From assembly GCA_900095095.1 (NCBI GenBank), contig FMBT01000516.1, positions 1 through 64,000 on the forward strand: DNA of 64,000 nt, read 5' to 3'. The notes beneath the pieces were generated by a model. That model saw only the letters and a program-made list of their open reading frames with translations, ran no database searches and was not told the origin of the DNA. Numbering within the stretch: the first letter of the stretch is position 1; each line of letters opens with the position of its first letter. A program made the position numbers and the translations under genes. This document shows positions 43,149 to 54,773 of this stretch, piece by piece. Source of the stretch: Fragilariopsis cylindrus CCMP1102. Lineage: Eukaryota > Bacillariophyta > Bacillariophyceae > Bacillariales > Bacillariaceae.

Positions 43149-44642
43149 ATGACAATTCTTCATCCATCGGGATATTACAATAACAATAGGAATTCTTCGT
43201 TATCACCGATGACAACGAAACCAACGACGTTCCAAAATAACAACAAGGAACAGCAGCAACAACAACAACAATATCAAATTCAAACAGTCGGTCGTGTTTC
43301 TCAGCAACAGCAGCTGCAAACGACGAATCATCAACAACAGCAACACAATCGTCTTTTACCTACCTATGTTCCTGGTCCTGCCATCGTCAATAATAACGCT
43401 ACGATGGCTTTACAACAGCAACCTCAACAACAAGATAATGTTGACAAAGACGGTAATGTTAACGACGTTGACTACAATAATAACAATGACGAAGCTGTTA
43501 GCATAGATGCTTCATCATTACCTTCAAATGGATCAATCCGACCAGATCCGAATTATAATTCTGCACGTGATCCGATGAATCCAATCAATCAAAATAGACC
43601 ATTTATACCACCATTAGATATTACAATCAAAACTGTTCGTGGTAGACGAAGGAAATATATGAGAAGTGCGGAGCAAGAACAAAGAGGAATTGAAGAGCAG
43701 CAACAAGATCAAGATCCATCATCATCATCATCATCATCGTTGTGTCGATCACCACTACCAACAGCATCAACACCGCTACAACTGCAGCAACCCGAATGGT
43801 TGCAATTAAATAGTGGCGGGAAACAACAACGACCACAATATCATCATCAATCACCAACGTTATGTCGGTCACCACTACCACCAACACTAATGATACCCGT
43901 CATGAATGTAGGTCCATCCTATACACCCACGACTCCTACAACTAGCTGTGGTGGTGGTAATACACTGATGATAGCAGCAGTTCAACCTACACATTCATTT
44001 ACAGAAGTTTCCAAATCTAATACTACTGCAGCAACTACACGTGGTAGTAGTATCACACAATTATCACTTGAGGAATATCAATTAAACTTACATCCATCTA
44101 TATATTACGACCAAGAAGAACCTGCAACAACTGATGTGGTGAATAGTGATAAGTTCCACAGCGATAACACTACTACTACTACTGACAGCAACAACAACAT
44201 AAACGAAGATACCGTGCTTGCACAACAACAGCAAAACAGTAAACAACGTAAAGGTATGGTCCGACGAGAGCTAACACGACGAGTTTTCCAATTTAAGAAA
44301 AAGAAAACGAATAATGAAGTAATGATTGATAAAAACAGTAACAGTAACAACAACACTGATCATAATGCTATTAATGGTGATGACATTGATCGTGCTTTTG
44401 GTGTCATTGATACTAACACTGTAGTTGATAGTACAGACGCAGAAGCAGTATCAGGAGCAGCAGCAGAAGACAATGATTCGAAGAACAATAACACGCCCAC
44501 TAAAAATGTTATTTTAGTTACAAAGAAGAAGAACAAATCACCCTACAGTATATTTAGCACTATAAATATTACTGGTATGATGGCGAAACAAGGTCAGGAA
44601 AATAATAATGATAATGATAATGAATCATCGATTGTAGTATGA
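43149..44642 (+). CDS. Hypothetical Gln/Asn/Ser/Thr-rich protein
   Basis: A 497-residue single exon. Mostly poly-Q/poly-N with islands of ordinary sequence: RPFIPPLDITIKTVRGRRRK, two RSPLPT/RSPLPP motifs (LCRSPLPTAST and LCRSPLPPTLM), SLEEYQLNLHPSIYYDQ, RRELTRRVFQFKKKK and the C-terminal PYSIFSTINITGMMAKQG. The repeated SP sites and the RGRRRK basic patch would fit a nuclear, phosphorylated protein, but no known domain is visible. Islands keep one frame throughout, which supports a real gene. Confidence 0.6.
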   Translation: MTILHPSGYYNNNRNSSLSPMTTKPTTFQNNNKEQQQQQQQYQIQTVGRVSQQQQLQTTNHQQQQHNRLLPTYVPGPAIVNNNATMALQQQPQQQDNVDKDGNVNDVDYNNNNDEAVSIDASSLPSNGSIRPDPNYNSARDPMNPINQNRPFIPPLDITIKTVRGRRRKYMRSAEQEQRGIEEQQQDQDPSSSSSSSLCRSPLPTASTPLQLQQPEWLQLNSGGKQQRPQYHHQSPTLCRSPLPPTLMIPVMNVGPSYTPTTPTTSCGGGNTLMIAAVQPTHSFTEVSKSNTTAATTRGSSITQLSLEEYQLNLHPSIYYDQEEPATTDVVNSDKFHSDNTTTTTDSNNNINEDTVLAQQQQNSKQRKGMVRRELTRRVFQFKKKKTNNEVMIDKNSNSNNNTDHNAINGDDIDRAFGVIDTNTVVDSTDAEAVSGAAAEDNDSKNNNTPTKNVILVTKKKNKSPYSIFSTINITGMMAKQGQENNNDNDNESSIVV

Positions 44643-45450
44643 TCATAAATAATAGTATATTCCTATGTTGTATACACTACTTATAGGCACACATAAAGTT
44701 AACTTACTTACTAAACTTTTTTTTCCTAAATCAAGTTAAACAATACTATTAATAGCAAAGATCGTATTGCATCATTCACTATAGGCTAGCTAGTTAATCG
44801 TTCACTTAGTCCCTACCTTATAGTAACTGTCCAGTTTATGGAGAAGGACGATTAGGATTTGTGTTTCGACCATGATTGAAATATGTATATCAACTGGGTA
44901 TTTCCATTAGTAGTATTGCCACTGTAATAAATAAAATCGATGTGCATAATAGCTTCCTATAAAATGGAAAGGAGAAAACTGGTGGGATTTAAAAAGTTGG
45001 TAAAGTATGGATTGTTCTACTTTGAAGTATGGAGGTGCAAAGCAATGAAAATACAGAATCAAATTTCCTGATGTGTCATGCACGTAGTTACATTGCATCA
45101 TAAAAGAGGAGAATTAGAAAAAGTGTGAAATTTGAGCGAAACTGTTGCCAGTTTGAAAGATTCCCGGAACCCCCTTGTTGCCCTTCGTGTTTTGCTTCAA
45201 CATTCCAATTTCCAATTCTCAATTCGACTGTTTGAACGCATCGCCAAATAACAAGAAAGCAAAACACTGCCGCCAAAAGATCTTGGCGTACAACAAAGAG
45301 AAGAAATAAGAAAGTAGTGTGTCATACATCTCCCTTCACACAAAATAATACGTTATGTATGTACAGTAGTATACTTTACATGCCACTCCAATCATTGTTG
45401 ATAGAAACTACTGTAAAAAGACAAGTAAATAAAAAACCTTTAGCTTTGCC
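44643..45450. other. Intergenic region
   Basis: 808 bases; TACAGTA/TACTGTA words near 45364 and 45412, close to the next ATG. No gene is supported. Confidence 0.4.
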
Positions 45451-46620
45451 ATGTCGGGGAATCTAAAAGAGTTTCAGTATCTTGCTCCTGGATTTGTGAT
45501 TCCTGATTGGATTAAAAGAGGAGAAGACGATGAAGACGATGGAGTCGTAAATGAGAACGAGAACAACGAGAACAATGATGATACTGAAAACATGGACATA
45601 GAAGACAACGATGAAGAGGCCATAAACATTACCAGCGTCGATGGAAGTGACGTCGATAACGAAAACTTGGATTATGATAATAACGAGGACGTGGACTATG
45701 ATCTTGATGACCTTGATGATGATAGTGATGATGATGATGATGATGAAATCCCCCAGGAAAAACCACGATCACCACAAATTACTTGCTTGGATGTAAATCC
45801 ATCTTTGGAAAATTTGAAAGGGATGTACGATTTGATTTACTTTGCATGCGTAACAGACAAATATCTGATGAGCGAAAACGAACATAGATTGATAACAGGA
45901 ACTATGGAACTATCTTCGGATAGAAAGAGATCCTTGGACAGTAGTAGTGGTAGTAGTGATAATCTAGTCGGAACCATATCAATTCCAAAAGAGATCAAAG
46001 AAAAACTCGTTTTCATTAATGGTATTGAAGACGACGATATCAACATCAAGTACTATCACGATGGTCATAAAGTTTCTGTTACAAATGTTGACGGAGTTTT
46101 TTTTTGTGGTGGTGGCCCTGTTGAAAATGTTGGAAAAATGCGAATCGTTGCAAAAAACCATTTCATTCAATATTGTCCACATACATCACATGGTCCAAAG
46201 AAATTAATTGACTATGCGAACTCTGTCTGTTTACGTACAATGAACGAAGTTACGTCGTTTTATCGTAGCCATTATACCAAGGACGACACGGAAGATGATA
46301 AAGAATTACTTTGGCTGAGTCATCATATGAATATACCAACTGCAGTTTCTTGTATAGTCAACAAGTATCTTGGATATGGTAACCCATTTCAGTACAATCC
46401 TGTCCGACAAACTTTATTACGTCGTCATTTGAAACTTCCTGGTCATGTAGTATCAATAGTGAACTCATTTCTCCCACCAGTTTCACAGAAACCACCAATC
46501 TGTTTTCTCTTTGTAGAAGGTGACATTTTCATTGACATTAAATGGAAAGGTATTGAGGATGGTGCTGAATTTATAACTACCTTTGTTGCAAGACGACGAC
46601 CAATACTACAGCAAAATTAA
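45451..46620 (+). CDS. Unknown protein with acidic N-terminus and globular C-terminal half
   Basis: A 389-residue single exon. It begins SGNLKEFQYLAPGFVIPDWI, followed by about 90 Asp/Glu/Asn-rich residues. From residue 105 the sequence is ordinary and globular: ITCLDVNPSLENLKGMYDLI, IPKEIKEKLVFINGIEDD, GVFFCGGGPVENVGKMRIVA, then NIPTAVSCIVNKYLGYGNPF and LKLPGHVVSIVNSFLPP. The two xVxxIVNxxL motifs look like related helices. No known family is recognised. A second frame continues open past the stop (46583-46783) but has no clear coding signal. Confidence 0.6.
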   Translation: MSGNLKEFQYLAPGFVIPDWIKRGEDDEDDGVVNENENNENNDDTENMDIEDNDEEAINITSVDGSDVDNENLDYDNNEDVDYDLDDLDDDSDDDDDDEIPQEKPRSPQITCLDVNPSLENLKGMYDLIYFACVTDKYLMSENEHRLITGTMELSSDRKRSLDSSSGSSDNLVGTISIPKEIKEKLVFINGIEDDDINIKYYHDGHKVSVTNVDGVFFCGGGPVENVGKMRIVAKNHFIQYCPHTSHGPKKLIDYANSVCLRTMNEVTSFYRSHYTKDDTEDDKELLWLSHHMNIPTAVSCIVNKYLGYGNPFQYNPVRQTLLRRHLKLPGHVVSIVNSFLPPVSQKPPICFLFVEGDIFIDIKWKGIEDGAEFITTFVARRRPILQQN

Positions 46621-47006
46621 ATGGTACTCAGTAGGACAGGACTATGAAAAGAGTTATACGATGGATTACGTTAGTAGAAAATTACTGACAACGATGAAAA
46701 GATTATATACTACTGTACAACAAAATGAAATAACAAACTTTGATTTGTATTTCACATTCATTATCATTGTTCCTACAATATGATATTATTTTATTCTATC
46801 GAAAGTTTCTTGAGAGCTCTTTCGGTGGCTTGTTTATTTGTTCTGATAATATGTAACTAATAAGTGTCACTTGCTACAATATGTTAAACATCATAATTTA
46901 CGCTACGGAGTAAATGATTGGAATTTGAGACTCGAATTTTGCATCGTCCGACCTAGGATGGATATCATATAGTAGCTGCCCAATAGTACAACGACTGTGT
47001 TTTCCG
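46621..47006. other. Convergent intergenic region
   Basis: 386 bases, AT-rich, nothing recognised. Confidence 0.35.
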
Positions 47007-47286
47007 TCATATTTCGACACGACTGGTGGTAGTTGTTGCTTTTTGCTGTTGTAATTTTTGTTGCCGTTGTTGCCTTTTAAAGTCAGCAGGTGATATCATG
47101 TCATTCCCCAAACTCCATATCCCACGTTTTTGTTTTTGAGCGTCTGCTTCCTTCGTTCTAAGAATATCTAAGTTATTACTATATTCCGCTCCACCCCCAG
47201 TATATAATGTTGCAAGTCCACGACGGATTAATTCAATAGAAAGATCTTTTTGACCAAATAGTATGAACTTTCGTGGTGTTTGTAGG
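47007..47286 (-). pseudogene. Staphylococcal-nuclease-type gene, C-terminal part
   Basis: The frame reads FALQTPRKFILFGQKDLS, then IELIRRGLATLYTGGGAEYS, EADAQKQKRGIWSLGN and SPADFKRQQRQQK, stopping at 47007. RGLATLYTGGGAEY and AQ..KRGIWSLG are the closing blocks of eukaryotic SNase-fold proteins. The N-terminal part of the same fold is 3.2 kb upstream on the same strand (50480-50933), with a repeat-bounded segment between. The open frame runs on into the inverted repeat at 47287, giving TITNFFPPFA before FALQ. Either the gene is split by insertion or a very long intron holds the segment. Confidence 0.7.
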
Positions 47287-47330
47287 GCAAATGGCGGGAA
47301 AAAATTCGTTATAGTGTAAAAATATAGTTT
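47287..47330 (-). repeat. Terminal inverted repeat, left copy
   Basis: Contains GGCGGGAAA, the complement of TTTCCCGCC, which is the E2F/DP consensus. A degenerate (TGTTAC)n run (47335-47372) follows directly inside the element and encodes the SNSNSNS tail of the resident gene. Confidence 0.7.
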
Positions 47331-49242
47331 ATTTGTTACTGTTACTGTTACTGTTACTGTTAATGTTACTGTGTGTTTCGTCGTATCGCCTATGCCCATA
47401 ATTTCTTAAAAAATTGAAATTAATGGAATTAAGAAGCTCAGTGCGTTTATTTGCTAATTTATTCTTATTGTACCAAAATCGTTGTTTAGCAACCCATATT
47501 CCAAGAGGAGGATCTTTGGTATACCGACTTGGTACTTGTGTTGACTTATACTGTTTCTTGTACGCCACAAGTTTCTGATACATTCCCATCCAGTGCACAT
47601 CCAATGGAATCCCAACAAAAGATCTCATTGACCAAACAAAATTGATGGAATTAAGAAGCTCAGTGCGTTTACTTTCTAATTTATTCTTATTGTACAAAAA
47701 TCGTTGTTTAGCAATCCATCTCCCAAGAGGAGTATCTTTGGTATACCGACTTGGTAATTGTGTTGATTTATATTGTTTCTTGTACGCCACAAGTTTCTGA
47801 TACATTCCCATCCATTGCCCATGGGACAAACGGTTTGCACGACGTTGTTCGTACGTTAGTAATGCTAAAGACTTCTGGTATCCTAACAAACAATTTGCAC
47901 GTTTTTGTTCCTTAGTGCGTGATCCTAAACCCTTGTCGTAATTCGCCTTTTGCATTCGGTAGATCATTTTGTCTAATGCTCTTGATTGATCACTTGTTCT
48001 ATTACCAGCTAAAGTTTTGTTTTTCGCTGCCATGAACGTGGATTTTTTCTTTCTACTACTCGTAGCATGAAGCACCGGTTTGAGCGTTGATGGTTCTTCG
48101 ATGGTGATTATTAGTAAGACGAGTTTACCATTTGATCCGTCATTAATGATAGGGGTGTTCAAAATCTTATCAATACCATCTTGTGTGTTCAATCCAAGAA
48201 CACATTGAATTAACTTTATTTCACCATTCATATTGTCTCTGATCGGTGCACCAAATGCTAGATGACAACGATTATAAGCAGCCATCAAACATTCCACATT
48301 TTGCTGTACACCGTGCACCAATGGTGCTCTGTCCACTGGACCAGCCCGATCGCGACTACACATTTTGAACAACCACGTCTGTCCTATTTTGAAACAAGAA
48401 TCTTTCTTCTTAGGACCTGTACAAATAGTAATGAAAGACAAATCTGTTAGAACAATAATAAATAATTCATGAACAATACAATTGGAATACATTTAGACAA
48501 CATAAATAACAACAAAACACTTACCGTTATTATACAGTGCGTGGTTTCTCACTCTTGGGTTACTTTTTTCATTTGCCCAGGATGATAGGGAAGAAGGGTG
48601 ATGACCTTCAATTCCACTACAGCGTACAATTTCCAAAACACGACTTTCACCATCATCCTTTAGCACCCAACGTGCTAGCATACCATATTTGCATAGATGC
48701 AACACTTGTTGTTGCAGTTCTTTTTTTGTACTTGCCGACAAATCACTTTTTTCAGCAAGACGGACACTAAAACCTCGTAAAGCTACTTGCGTAGGGGTGA
48801 CTGTACCAATTTCCACCAGTCTTGTTTTTACATCACTCATTTCCATAGCAGTATCCGGTTGAAACATTAACTTTGATGGAATGTCCTTGTATTCGTCTTG
48901 GTCGTCTTCGCTGTCGACAGTCATTGATCTTTCTGTGCGCCGGTTCTCTTGAATTCGTTTCGAATAACGACGTAACGGTTGAAAGACTGTGTCGTCGTTC
49001 TCTTGAATTTGTTCCAATTGTTCCGATAGTTCTCCGTTTGATAATTTCTTCTTGGCACTCCGATGTGGTTGTTTTCTCGGGGTACTAATGCCTGTTTCGA
49101 TCTCCAGTGCTTTTCGCTTCTTTTTAGTCTGTTTGGATGGTGGTTGAAGATTAAATTCATGCAATCCAAGTTGTTTCAATCGTTCATTATTTCGTTGAAT
49201 ATTTACTAAACGACGACGTTCATAGTTAGATAATGATGGCAT
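47329..49242 (-). CDS. Two-exon protein with YERxRxxNI motif and tandem helicase-associated repeats
   Basis: Exon 1 is 49242-48525 and exon 2 is 48416-47329, spliced at AACG|GTAAGT ... TTTGTACAG|GTCC (108-bp intron), giving 601 residues. The start MPSLSNYERRRLVNIQRNNE, then RLKQLGL, is a motif I associate with WDR76-like and other chromatin proteins. Basic and Ser-rich text follows, then a globular part (RGFSVRLAEKSDLSASTKKE, GIEGHHPSSLSSWANEKSNP, FKIGQTWLFKMCSRDRAG, VDRAPLVHGVQQ) that weakly recalls an SRA/YDG fold. The C-terminus holds two HA repeats of the form WMGMYQKLVAYKKQYKSTQ - PSRYTKD.PLG.W.AKQR - LLNSINF. HA repeats are thought to bind nucleic acid. The stop codon lies within the left inverted repeat, so gene and element end together. 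Confidence 0.65.
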
Positions 49243-49721
49243 AATTAATTGACGATCGATAACAACCACAACCACAACAAACAATAATTTTTATGAGAAA
49301 AAGAGAGATAATACTCAAATAATGAACTGAATAATACCGTATAAAACTCTTGATACAGACGGTGCTGAAATTTTTGATGACTCTCATGTTGTGCGCTATT
49401 TATTTATTTATTTACTTACGTGTATGCAGTTTTTTCGCCACACTTGTGTTTATTTTTATTTAATGAATTATTACTTCATCAAGTTCGCAAAAATCTTAAA
49501 AAAAAGCCAAGATTGTTCAAAAAAAGAACAAAGTTTCGTCGGAAAAAGTAGGTTTTCTCGTTGCACCCTCCTTCCAATAATATAGGTACGAATGACAAGA
49601 AAAATGGGAAACATATCGACGTTGATGATGATGATGATGATGATGAAAATGCTTTAACAGCAAATAACATTAACACATTAATATCGCAGCAACAACAACA
49701 ACCAAAGATACCTATCAAAGA

Positions 49722-49750
49722 TATAACGAATTTTTTCCCGCCATTTGCGC
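49722..49750 (+). repeat. Internal copy of the inverted-repeat end
   Basis: TATAACGAATTTTTTCCCGC continuing CATTTGCGC, identical over about 27 bases to the right end at 50184-50210 and in the same orientation, 460 bp apart. About 480 bases upstream of the resident gene's ATG. Confidence 0.8.
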
Positions 49751-50165
49751 GTGTCATCGTAGTCAGCGTTTGAGCCATCATTAGTGTCGTCGTCGTCGTC
49801 ATTAGTGTGATGCTGATGATGAGGACGATTATGATTTGGGTCTACATCAACTATAGTTAGTACTGACGAAATTGTTGCGAAAGTAACTGTTGCTTTCGAT
49901 TTCACATTGATACATTGCAATTGCAATAATAATCAACTTGAAGAAAACAAAGGAATAATAATGATAAAGTACGACGACGATATTAGCAAGTACTAATTAG
50001 AAGTTGTTGACGAATGGCGTCGATGGTGGTGATGATGATGGTTGTGGTTTCCACTTCCAACAATCAGCTGTAATTAACCTAGTATTATCATTATTATTAT
50101 CGTTATTGGTATGTTTGTCTTCGTCGTCATCAACATCAACAATATCAACTATTTCTTCCACTATA

Positions 50166-50210
50166 CGAAATACATTTTTACATTATAACGAATTTTTTCC
50201 CGCCATTTGC
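50166..50210 (+). repeat. Terminal inverted repeat, right copy
   Basis: Complement of the left end at 47287, matching about 27 bases perfectly and extending with mismatches to about 45. Contains TTTCCCGCC. Confidence 0.75.
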
Positions 50211-50479
50211 GCCGAGGAGAATAATAATACCACCCGTCCTAACGTCATCGTAAACATCATTGTTATTATCTTCGCAGATTTCGATATTAGGAACGATGAT
50301 GATGATGACGACGACGATACTATATCATCACCATCGACAGCGGTAGCAGCAGCAGCAGCAGCAGCTCATCCCTATAATCCTTATCATCATCATTGCATCT
50401 TTGGCGGTAGCATGTCAGCAGCAAAAGCAACAATAACAATAACTAGAGATACAGATAAAGCAACAACCATCCCAGAAGG

Positions 50480-50933
50480 CAGTATCTTTGCTTAACAAAG
50501 TGACTTTTACTTTCTTTCCCAGTACTAAATTAGTAACATACTCCTTTGCCTCGTCGCCGAAAGGCTGGGACGGTGGATCATTCTTTCTTTTTTGTATTTC
50601 GGGACAATCTACACCATATAAACGAATCGATAGGGTAGAATCATAAATACGTTTTGGCGGTTCGAGACTAATACGACGACTACCCGATGTTGGAACTTTT
50701 TTCATCCTATCCTCACAATAAAAGGAGGTTCGACAATGTCTGATTCGTACAGTATCTCCATCTATTGCACGTTCGACTCTTCCATATATAACACGGTCCT
50801 CTTTAAAGTAACGGCTTGGTACATCATCAACAGTTTCGAATTTTGGCGGCAGGAAAATTGACGAATCTCCAGCAGTAATAACGGTAGCTGCCACCAAAGC
50901 AGCAGCTGAAAATTTTGAAAGTGTAACGATCAT
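50480..50933 (-). pseudogene. Staphylococcal-nuclease-type gene, N-terminal part
   Basis: ATG 50933. MIVTLSKFSAAALVAATVIT is a hydrophobic signal or anchor, followed by SSIFLPPKFETVDDVPSRYF. The SNase core then starts: VERAIDGDTVRIRH, LSIRLYGVDCPEIQKR (the Arg and Asp of the family R.yGiD.PE motif are kept), EAKEYVTNLVLGKKVKVTLL and SKD. The expected continuation (family D.YGR.VA.V) is missing; the frame instead reads TAFWDGCCFI and stops at 50415. The C-terminal blocks are at 47007-47286. Signal-anchored SNases cleave nucleic acids in secretory or membrane compartments; activity here depends on whether the pieces are ever joined. Confidence 0.75.
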
Positions 50934-52171
50934 GCTAATAATCTATATGATGAAATAGGGATGAAATGATGTATTCTCTCTGTATCGCAATCACCGCTAA
51001 AGTCCTGAAATTTTTCAAATCCATTAGACGCAGTGACGCTAAGAAAAATTACAGCCAGAGAGATGTTGGCAGTTGGCAATCCTCATAAAAATCATTTATT
51101 TCGCTTTCCGCTCCCGCAGGGCCAGTCGATATGCCGTGACTGGGAAAATCCATTCCCGGTCAGTTCCTTCGAAAAGTCTGAAGTCGCGAGATGCCATAAC
51201 CAGCTAGAGTAGAGAAGAAAGGGCAGAACTATTATTGTATTATATTGCAACAAGTTCCACGGTCTTTATCTATAGCATCTCATATACATAATAATACAAA
51301 ATTCGTTTCCAATTGAAAAGAAATTCAGATTGATCCATTTGACGCCTATTTGGACTACAATCGCAACAACGGTGTTGTTTTCTTTCTTTTCTACCCAAGA
51401 TCCCAAGCATCGCCGATACAGATTAAGCTAACGGCTGAGATTTCGACAATATGGAAAGACAACTGAGATTTCGACTCTACGGAAAGACATTTTGATGTAC
51501 TGTCCGTATGCAAGCAAAGGTGCTCCAAAAAGAAAAGTACCCTGTCTATATCACCTTAAGAAAGCTAAAGAGAATCGATGATTTCGACTCTCAGACTTTT
51601 GCGAAACAGCATTATCTTTCGATACGTCTACTGTCAGCTTTGGCAATCAAAGTGGCGGGTCGCAATTTTGGCTTGTTTTTCTTCTTGCTGCTGCTCTCAC
51701 ATTTCACACTGAAGTAATGTACGGAAGAGATGAAAACTGAACTGAAAACCAAAATTGTGGAGGAGATCGTTGGAATGATCCGTTACAAGTACGTTGTGCA
51801 AACCTATTTCTATAGAATGGATGTTTCTTATTAACTTTGTTTCCTTATTTTACCTTCTCATATAAATTATTCCTAAGTTGTACATTGTGTTATTTTCTTT
51901 TTACATTATTGTTCTTTACGAACATAATTGTGTTCTTTTCCTTATGCAATTGTTCTTCATAATGTGTGATACAGCATCACTTCTCACTTCAGTGTTCTCA
52001 TTGTGTGTTCTCATCCATATCAAGTCATGTCGTCGAAGTCCTGTCAGACGTACACATGATATTTCATTCGTGCCAACACACTACCTTAATTTTAATATGT
52101 AATACGTATCTGACTTGTCGTTAGTCTTGGTGTCTCTTATAAATGATTTTAATCCATTAATCATATCCGAA
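50934..52171. other. Intergenic, with a small hairpin, a short direct repeat and possible LTR text
   Basis: A stem-loop GACTGGGAA-loop-TTCCCGGTC lies at 51138-51161, and two copies of CTGAGATTTCGAC with GGAAAGACA at 51435-51489. The part from about 51880 to 52079, adjoining the copia remnant, may be the start of its LTR (TGTTGGCACGAAT on the minus strand at 52079). No gene is supported. Confidence 0.4.
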
Positions 52172-52418: not shown

Positions 52419-54773
52419 TTATGATTTACATGCACCTTTTCCAACATCACCACATGTTGTTGGACAATAAAAGTGAATTCTCTTTTGTCCAGGAATATTC
52501 CTTTTCCTTAAGCTTGAATTATCATTATTACGAGGAATTTCAAACTTCTTACATCTTTTTTTGATCTTCTTATTTTTATTCGGTCTACCAACCCAATCAC
52601 AACCCCTTCCACTTTTACCTCTCCATAAATATTCTGGTCGATCATCACACGGATCTGTGCTGACGTCGCTAATTGGAGCCTGCGTTGGAGCCTGCGTTGG
52701 AGGCTGCGTTGGAGGCTGCGTTGGAGGCTGCGTTGGAGGCTGCGTTGGAGGCTGCGTTGGAGGCTGCGTTGGAGGCTGCGTTGGAGGCTGCGTTGGAGGC
52801 TGCGTTGGAGGCTGCGTTGGTGGTGAAGACGGAGGTGATACCAATACATTATCTAAATTTGGTTTTACTAAAAATAATCCTCCAGAGACATCACTAATAG
52901 CAACAAGTTGGGACGAAAAAAATGGGTACACCGACCATGCACCATTAAACTTTGGAGAATCATTCATTGGGAATGTATCAAAATAACCAACTTCAATAAT
53001 AGAACCGGTTGGATCATTATCATAATCGTTGTCAATATCAGGAACCTGTAATATACGTAATCCTGCTTGATAATTGGATTGATAAATTAAATCACTGGAT
53101 GCAAATTTATTATCATACCCTTGTTCTACTGCACCAACAATATATAAATTATGATCAATTGCTGTTGTGGTGCCAAAATATTCTTGAAAATTTGTTGGTT
53201 TTTCTAAATCTTCAATATTCAATATTAGTGAACGTGTTTGACCACCAAGGTAATATTCATCAGTTTCGTCACCAAAAACAATATGTTTCTTATCAGATGA
53301 TAACCAACCTTGATGTGTATACCCCGTCTTAGCGTATTGTGTTCTGGACAATAGTTTAAAATCGGTTTTATCAGTAACATCAACAATTGTTACAGAATTT
53401 GCATTGAAACAAAAACAAATTTCATTTCCCTTATAATTTATATCAACACCATCATATACTACACATTCTGCGTCATGGACGTATCCATCGCCACCGTAAC
53501 ATCCTGCAAACTTTGGATTTTCTGGATCTGATACATCAACAATATGTAATCCACCTGCACAACCGTTTGTTCCACCAACTATGTATACAAAGTCCGTATC
53601 TTCATTAGCAACAATATTATGTGAATTTGTAACAGGACGATAGGGATTTCCTCCACCAGTATAGACATTTTCTCTAGGATTGAATTCAACACAGTAATAA
53701 TCATTGTAATAATCATTTTCACATTCGACATTCAATAATTGTGTTAAATCAAATATTTGCATTCCATGTCCACCCATTTCTGATCCAATATAGGCATGAT
53801 TTTTTATAACTTTCATATCTCTCCAATTTGATTTTCCTCTGGTCGTGGATGGTAAATAACCAACAATTTTTGGTTCCTTAAAGTTCGTAGCCTCCACAAA
53901 GAACATCCCTTCCTTGGTACCCCATAGAACAAATTCTCTTCTAGAATCATTGTCATCGGTGTCGATGTACGTCCAACCCCATACATCATTCCCACCGGTC
54001 GGCGGACTTAATTCCCTCTCATTATTAGTCGTAAGAACTGCAGTCAGTGGAATGTGTAGAATCAAATCAACATTTTTACAATCATAATCACCAGCTTTAC
54101 CATTAATACACTTTTTTTGTAGATCTAAGGATCGTACAGTATCCGAATATTTTGTAGTACTTGAAATTGAGGATGGTTGTATTTGTTGTACTGCTGAAAT
54201 CGTACTACCCGTGTCGCCGTCCGTAGTAGTAGTAGTAGCGGCTGCAATTGCAATGGCGTCTTCTTTTCTTTTAGCTGCGATAGCAGCCGACAATGAAATC
54301 GATGATGATGATGATGATAATGATAATGAAGAAGAAATCGATGATACGTCTTCCAACAAAAATTCTTCAAACATCAATGATGCAGAATCATGAAGCAATC
54401 CACACATACATGCCATACTCATCTGTTTTGTAGTATTAGTAGCAGTAGTAGTAGCAGTAGCAGCAGTAGTAGACCTAGTAATCGCAGTCATACTTGTACT
54501 ACCTCGCTCACGTTCATAATCCATGATTGATGGGAAGGAATCCCATGATGATAAACAACCATATTCTTCATATAAATCTTTTGTTTCTGCAATAATTTTT
54601 TCATATTCTTTATTAATAACAACATCAGGAGATCTTAGATTGGTTGTTGTTGTTGTTGGTGGTGGTAATGGTGCAGAATCAACGACGACAATCGGGAGAT
54701 GAAGTAGTAGTAGTGGTGCCATTGATGTTAACGTGACACCAACAACTGCGGATCGTAGTAGCGACATCATCAT
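52419..54773 (-). CDS. Secreted LVIVD/choice-of-anchor-B-type protein with PPTQ stalk
   Basis: The first ATG in frame is 54773 (MMMSLLRSAVVGVTL...), giving 784 residues with a signal peptide ending near VVVDSA. The frame is open further upstream but has no earlier ATG. The central part has LVIVD-type beta-propeller repeats: GMFFVEATNFKEPKIVGYLP, GMQIFDLTQLLNV, GGLHIVDVSDPENPKFAGCY, NSVTIVDVTDKTDFKLLSRT, and SLILNIEDLEKP. A run of about eleven PPTQ tetrads follows, then a Cys-containing tail (DPCDDRPEYLWRGKSGRGCD, RIHFYCPTTCGDVGKGACKS). This domain order is familiar from diatom cell-surface proteins. Likely extracellular or cell-wall associated; ligand unknown. Confidence 0.8.
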   Translation of the reverse strand: MMMSLLRSAVVGVTLTSMAPLLLLHLPIVVVDSAPLPPPTTTTTNLRSPDVVINKEYEKIIAETKDLYEEYGCLSSWDSFPSIMDYERERGSTSMTAITRSTTAATATTTATNTTKQMSMACMCGLLHDSASLMFEEFLLEDVSSISSSLSLSSSSSSISLSAAIAAKRKEDAIAIAAATTTTTDGDTGSTISAVQQIQPSSISSTTKYSDTVRSLDLQKKCINGKAGDYDCKNVDLILHIPLTAVLTTNNERELSPPTGGNDVWGWTYIDTDDNDSRREFVLWGTKEGMFFVEATNFKEPKIVGYLPSTTRGKSNWRDMKVIKNHAYIGSEMGGHGMQIFDLTQLLNVECENDYYNDYYCVEFNPRENVYTGGGNPYRPVTNSHNIVANEDTDFVYIVGGTNGCAGGLHIVDVSDPENPKFAGCYGGDGYVHDAECVVYDGVDINYKGNEICFCFNANSVTIVDVTDKTDFKLLSRTQYAKTGYTHQGWLSSDKKHIVFGDETDEYYLGGQTRSLILNIEDLEKPTNFQEYFGTTTAIDHNLYIVGAVEQGYDNKFASSDLIYQSNYQAGLRILQVPDIDNDYDNDPTGSIIEVGYFDTFPMNDSPKFNGAWSVYPFFSSQLVAISDVSGGLFLVKPNLDNVLVSPPSSPPTQPPTQPPTQPPTQPPTQPPTQPPTQPPTQPPTQPPTQPPTQAPTQAPISDVSTDPCDDRPEYLWRGKSGRGCDWVGRPNKNKKIKKRCKKFEIPRNNDNSSLRKRNIPGQKRIHFYCPTTCGDVGKGACKS
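52676..52826. repeat. 12-bp tandem repeat encoding PPTQ
   Basis: Unit GGCTGCGTTGGA, about twelve near-perfect copies, with the first copies starting GCCTGCGTTGGA. It encodes the Pro-Pro-Thr-Gln stalk of the LVIVD protein on the minus strand. Confidence 0.95.

Follow-up and report, generated by a model that had tools for sequence, protein, structure and literature searches.

An HA-repeat gene between conserved inverted ends in two unrelated genes of Fragilariopsis cylindrus: a probable low-copy, fragment-capturing element

In a window of 64,000 nucleotides from Fragilariopsis cylindrus CCMP1102 (positions 1 to 64,000 of contig FMBT01000516.1, assembly GCA_900095095.1), a staphylococcal-nuclease-type (SNase) gene is interrupted by a segment that is probably a low-copy, gene-carrying and fragment-capturing element with terminal inverted repeats (TIRs), mobilized by an enzyme that a gene elsewhere encodes. 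Two units that share their ends and the HA gene occur in two unrelated genes, their edges adjoin coding sequence, fragments of other genes lie between ends, and the core of the HA gene is constrained. Transposition itself, the enzyme that would carry it out and the order of events are put forward here as a proposal only.

The segment is bounded by inverted arms (47287-47313 and 50184-50210) that are identical at 27 of 27 bp, as the preliminary description of this DNA had reported, and the likeness stretches to 43 nt at 93% identity (47287-47329 versus 50168-50210); both outer ends give GCAAAT when read inward. The window holds three matches to the 27-mer at up to three mismatches, and 100 shuffles gave none. 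The third match is an identical 27-bp end inside the segment, at 49722-49748 and in the same orientation as the right arm, and because of this end and the gene fragments inside we rejected the idea that the segment as first delimited is the whole story. Ends on the 3′ side of the HA gene are here named L, and those on its 5′ side R; the order of ends in the window is L (47287), R (49748) and L′ (50210). The features of the segment and its host gene are:

47007..47286, minus strand: C block of the SNase gene, adjoining the L end
47287..47329, plus strand: L end, at the 3′ side of the HA gene (perfect part 47287-47313)
47329..48416, minus strand: exon 2 of the HA gene, with two HA domains in tandem copies (47417-47600 and 47639-47822) and the stop codon (47329-47331)
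48417..48524, minus strand: intron of the HA gene, with GTAAGT...CAG borders, both splice sites being found also in C596 and C44
48525..49242, minus strand: exon 1 of the HA gene, holding the first part of the conserved core
49722..49748, minus strand: R end, the inner third 27-bp copy, at the 5′ side of the HA gene
49749..49766, no strand assigned: 18 bp beyond the R end, common to all three R ends (one in the window, two on C596)
49905..49989, no strand assigned: fragment with 84% identity to the coding sequence for the N terminus of a C462 gene, a gene without a Pfam match
49994..50172, minus strand: fragment 82% identical to coding sequence of a TLDc gene on C307
50168..50210, minus strand: L′ end, the right arm (perfect part 50184-50210)
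50211..50245, minus strand: short SNase coding piece adjoining the L′ end, in frame with the C block if the segment is omitted
50481..50933, minus strand: N block of the SNase gene, with a Pfam match

Within each of the 27-bp ends (47287-47313, 49722-49748 and 50184-50210), GGCGGGAAA is a putative E2F-type binding site by its resemblance to the consensus. The 18 bp beyond the three R ends show, by eye only, a likeness to a further part of the C462 gene.

The HA gene lies on the minus strand and has the two exons (49242-48525 and 48416-47329) that had been described, with a GT-AG intron, a product of 601 aa and two HA domains recognized by Pfam. Its stop codon had been placed in the left repeat; it starts 16 bp beyond the perfect repeat, and the placement holds only at the last base of the 43-nt arm. 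Sequence on the 5′ side of the gene (49241-49584) shows about 70% similarity to the 5′ region of two counterpart MYND-finger genes, one on C303 and one on C517. These two contigs appear to be allelic: their gene order is the same, and in both an HSF-type frame precedes an HA-repeat frame with DUF6824 (L042-L045).

The SNase blocks match PF00565 at positions 2-48 and 61-106. Both had been said to lie just outside the segment: both are indeed outside and the C block adjoins the L end, but the N block stands away from the right arm, from which it is separated by the coding piece 50211-50245 and then by a stretch largely similar to C108 and C339. The similar part (50285-50487) shows 88% identity with C108:388493-388702 and, over some of its length, 79% with C339:10497-10607, and may be a short dispersed repeat or a transposon-derived intron within the SNase gene. 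The two blocks alone score 65.3 bits in Pfam, rising to 72.7 when the 12 abutting residues are added in frame and to 66.6 when the same 12 are reversed, a modest gain over the reversed control of only 6.1 bits. The piece abutting the right arm contains GRVV, an SNase-type motif. When the flanks are joined exactly at the repeat edges the SNase frame is kept, which suggests that the border is exact at those edges; the joined site reads GTAGG/GCCGAGG. At the borders no target-site duplication was found beyond 1-2 bp (the longest is 1 bp, or 2 bp with both ends trimmed by two bases), and a duplication of either length, if real, would leave the restored SNase gene out of frame. As a query against the assembly, the joined blocks returned themselves and three weak partial matches of 40% identity, so that there is no close second SNase copy in the assembly. 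Nor was an empty allele of the window site found in the assembly: the only allele-like contig found, C627, starts at window position 51597, and the left flank has short, repeat-like matches only. Two further repeats lie in this part of the window, at 51769-52080, which has many similar copies across the assembly and is probably a dispersed repeat, and at 52673-52828, a 12-bp tandem repeat that codes for a PPTQ-type repeat at the end of a minus-strand frame for an LVIVD-repeat protein.

The preliminary description had proposed a genome search for other segments with these ends, and had held that its reading would be refuted if every related diatom had this HA gene at one and the same site in an SNase intron and copies elsewhere were lacking. 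We searched the assembly (67.9 Mb in 818 contigs) for the 22-bp end at up to three mismatches, with the reversed sequence as a control, and found nine matches on five contigs (three in the window, three on C596 and one each on C260, C693 and C632) and none for the control. Copies therefore do exist elsewhere, and contig C596 carries a second unit, with the same ends and the same HA gene, whose frames are open after splicing and which stands with both end types. The order on C596 is L (51496), R1 (48027) and R2 (47561). Between the two units the L end is identical at 61 of 61 bases over 47287-47347 and the R end agrees at 100 of 101 bases over 49666-49766; in a global alignment of the units in 100-bp bins, the first bin is at 94%, the last at 100% and all others at 42-95%. 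That the ends are better kept than the gene fits recognition by an enzyme, with recent exchange between ends as an alternative.

The unit on C596 also sits in a gene. The outer edge of its L end adjoins a carnitine-acyltransferase exon, in which AQFRALFGASRVP, following a GT-AG intron read by eye, reaches the outer base of the end and raises the acyltransferase score from 77.9 to 98.6 bits. Later parts of the acyltransferase (profile positions 173-573) follow on the same strand at 44.3-41.8 kb of C596. The interruption measures 7.2 kb and includes a second gene besides the HA gene and the two R ends. At its far border we found no end, and no empty allele turned up in the assembly for the right flank, which has two short matches there besides itself. 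The second gene (44592-46217, L051) has a weak, below-cut-off match to HhH-GPD.

The gene fragments carried in the window both sit between the inner R end and the right end (L′). Other parts of the TLDc gene are found on C596, twice, at 46394-46818 (80%) and 47642-47918 (71%).

Among the remaining contigs, an L end on C260 is accompanied by part of an HA domain, and C62 has an HA domain and the sequence next to an L end, but the end itself is absent. The HA-domain fragment on C62 (219468-219766, L009) has a long open frame on either side, the two perhaps belonging to a single host gene; when the fragment was tried as an intron, one of 22 GT/AG pairs in the stretch used kept the frame open, at a cost of about 20 upstream residues. 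The match on C632 has three mismatches, and we rejected chance as its explanation since a 112-bp stretch in common with C693 (93%) lies 124 and 115 bp from the ends; we keep the C632 end as a probable relative. No HA gene was seen on the stretches of C693 (by tblastn) or C632 (in open frames only) that were examined. We considered a 402-aa protein on C693 as a transposon protein and dropped it; it occurs at two places in the genome and has only a below-cut-off Pfam match. C70 and C44 carry relatives of the HA gene without such ends. On C70 the gene sits, with no ends, between HSP70 profile positions 370-460 and 506-598, and the interrupted copy may be dispensable, since the genome has further HSP70 genes, among them an open frame of 709 residues on C651.

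Selection on the HA gene was compared among these copies. For the core, the window and C596 give dS of 0.355 and dN/dS of 0.228 over 229 codons, and the remaining informative core pairs give dN/dS of 0.18-0.34; C70 enters these comparisons with exon 2 only and C44 with exon 1 only, and the C70-C44 pair, at 3 codons, is uninformative. Over all 553 aligned codons dN/dS for the window versus C596 is 0.45, and after the core it is 0.52 for this pair and 0.70 and 0.46 for the pairs with C70, although these post-core ratios are likely too high because the window is without a stretch present in C596 and C70, making that part of the alignment partly unsound. The higher values over all codons and after the core indicate that constraint is concentrated in the core. 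In both the window and C596 the frames of the gene are open.

How might such an arrangement have come about? The basic unit would extend from an L end to an R end, that is, over 47287-49748 in the window and 48027-51496 on C596, and in the window the extra L end (50210) would close a larger unit that holds the fragments of two other genes. An enzyme encoded elsewhere may recognize the conserved ends and move the unit alone or whatever lies between any two ends that are compatible, with fragments of neighboring genes being carried along when the second end belongs to a neighboring copy. Movement between ends of neighboring copies would account for the succession of L, R, fragments and L′ in the window. 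The HA gene would ride along and stay under selection. A gene-carrying, non-autonomous element had been suggested in the preliminary description, and the second unit, which repeats the ends and the gene in a different host gene, supports it. As had also been noted, no transposase is visible: Pfam found none in the frames scanned in either unit, nor in those tested near ends on C610, C596, C693 and C632, in an assembly that may be incomplete, and the frames on C260 were read by eye.

To which known kind of element does this one belong? The TIRs are common to copies at different sites, as in non-autonomous TIR DNA transposons, and the element fits this general kind, as a gene-carrying member, save that neither a duplication nor an autonomous partner was found. 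Most TIR transposons make target-site duplications, those of Mutator-like elements (MULEs) being about 8-11 bp and those of Ac/Ds 8 bp. The element has host gene fragments inside it, as do Pack-MULEs, but its duplication is at most 1-2 bp, and in the scanned frames there was no sign of a MULE transposase. Helitrons make no duplication, have no terminal inverted repeats and end in TC...CTRR; the element has inverted ends that read GCAAAT inward and not TC...CTRR. Pack-MULEs and Mutator-like elements are described as TIR elements whose insertions lie in or near genes and which take up fragments of host genes (PMC6446971), and Helitrons as capturing gene fragments (PMC4778049), a likeness to the element, as is the lack of a duplication. 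Maize Ds elements are non-autonomous, with varied contents between common short ends, and are moved by another element's enzyme (PMC3260210); the element would share the varied contents, the common short ends and a mover from another element, but no Ac-like partner is known here and the 8-bp duplication is absent. Spy transposons, of the PHIS superfamily, are described as moving by cut-and-paste without target-site duplications and inserting within AAATTT (PMC4482050). By that description the element resembles Spy in having no duplication, with the reservation of 1-2 bp, and differs in that the joined SNase site is GTAGG/GCCGAGG, not AAATTT, and in that no DDE transposase was seen. Pack-MULEs, Spy and Helitrons each fail at least one of the defining features tested. 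The suggestion that this is a new kind of element is not borne out: TIR elements are already known to carry genes and to capture fragments, and insertion that leaves no duplication is known as well; what is unusual is their combination, without a fit to a superfamily, and a family name for the element may already exist.

The HA protein itself had been suggested to act in the mobility of the segment, and a stronger form of this is that the HA-core protein is a recombinase or a needed DNA-binding subunit, the element being autonomous or half of a two-protein system. The HA gene is the only long gene common to both units, its core is constrained with frames open in both, and nucleic-acid binding is ascribed to HA repeats. 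A parallel would be the NuwaI transposons, in which a Myb/SANT DNA-binding ORF, separate from the transposase, lies next to it (PMC4482050). However, Pfam recognized no catalytic domain in the HA protein, two single-sequence structure models are too poor for use (mean pLDDT of 49.3 and 40.4), the gene occurs without ends on C70 and C44, and HA domains are very common away from the ends: among the 150 matches listed, which were scored out of 583 candidates and do not include the window's own HA domains, only C596 adjoins one of the nine ends. We consider this role quite unlikely, and give just as little credence to the broader proposition that the HA-core protein is an unrecognized transposition or recombination protein and that the element founds a class of exon-inserting TIR elements that carry gene fragments and leave no target-site duplication. 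A viral origin of the HA protein was also tried and rejected, six peptide patterns having matched nothing in viral contigs, and searches of the open-licence literature for the HA domain or PF03457, also with diatoms, gave no relevant paper.

Could the segment instead be no transposon at all? Double-strand-break repair that copied pieces of several genes might have produced patchwork insertions, with the inverted ends spread within such pieces. This would suit the lack of a clear target-site duplication, the mosaic of gene fragments, the failure to find an enzyme, the presence on C596 of R ends in tandem and of TLDc pieces more than once, and the interruption of HSP70 on C70 without ends. Against it, coding edges in two unrelated genes are met by one and the same L end, the gene recurs in company with both end types, and conservation is far higher in the ends than in the sequence between them; we hold it to be unlikely. 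A functional SNase gene with the segment as a large spliced intron, in which a gene is nested by chance, would be compatible with a C-block frame that is open through the left repeat and with the absence of a second close SNase gene from the assembly, but is in our view very improbable given that the repeat edges are not GT-AG borders, that coding sequence reaches them on both sides and that these ends and this gene are found again in a different host gene. The reading of the segment as a TIR element moved by an enzyme from elsewhere has its own points to answer, namely that no empty allele, no duplication beyond 1-2 bp and no transposase were found, that the C596 insertion is 7.2 kb long, includes a second gene and has a far border at which no end was found, that C70 and C44 have relatives without ends, that the SNase gain is small and that constraint is weaker outside the core.

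What we describe is one small clade of HA genes, with a constrained core, that is found within unrelated genes, flanked by conserved inverted ends and accompanied by pieces of other genes. The element, if confirmed, would offer a tangible means by which a gene is spread and exons are shuffled, and would provide a defined pair of ends with which to look for the enzyme.
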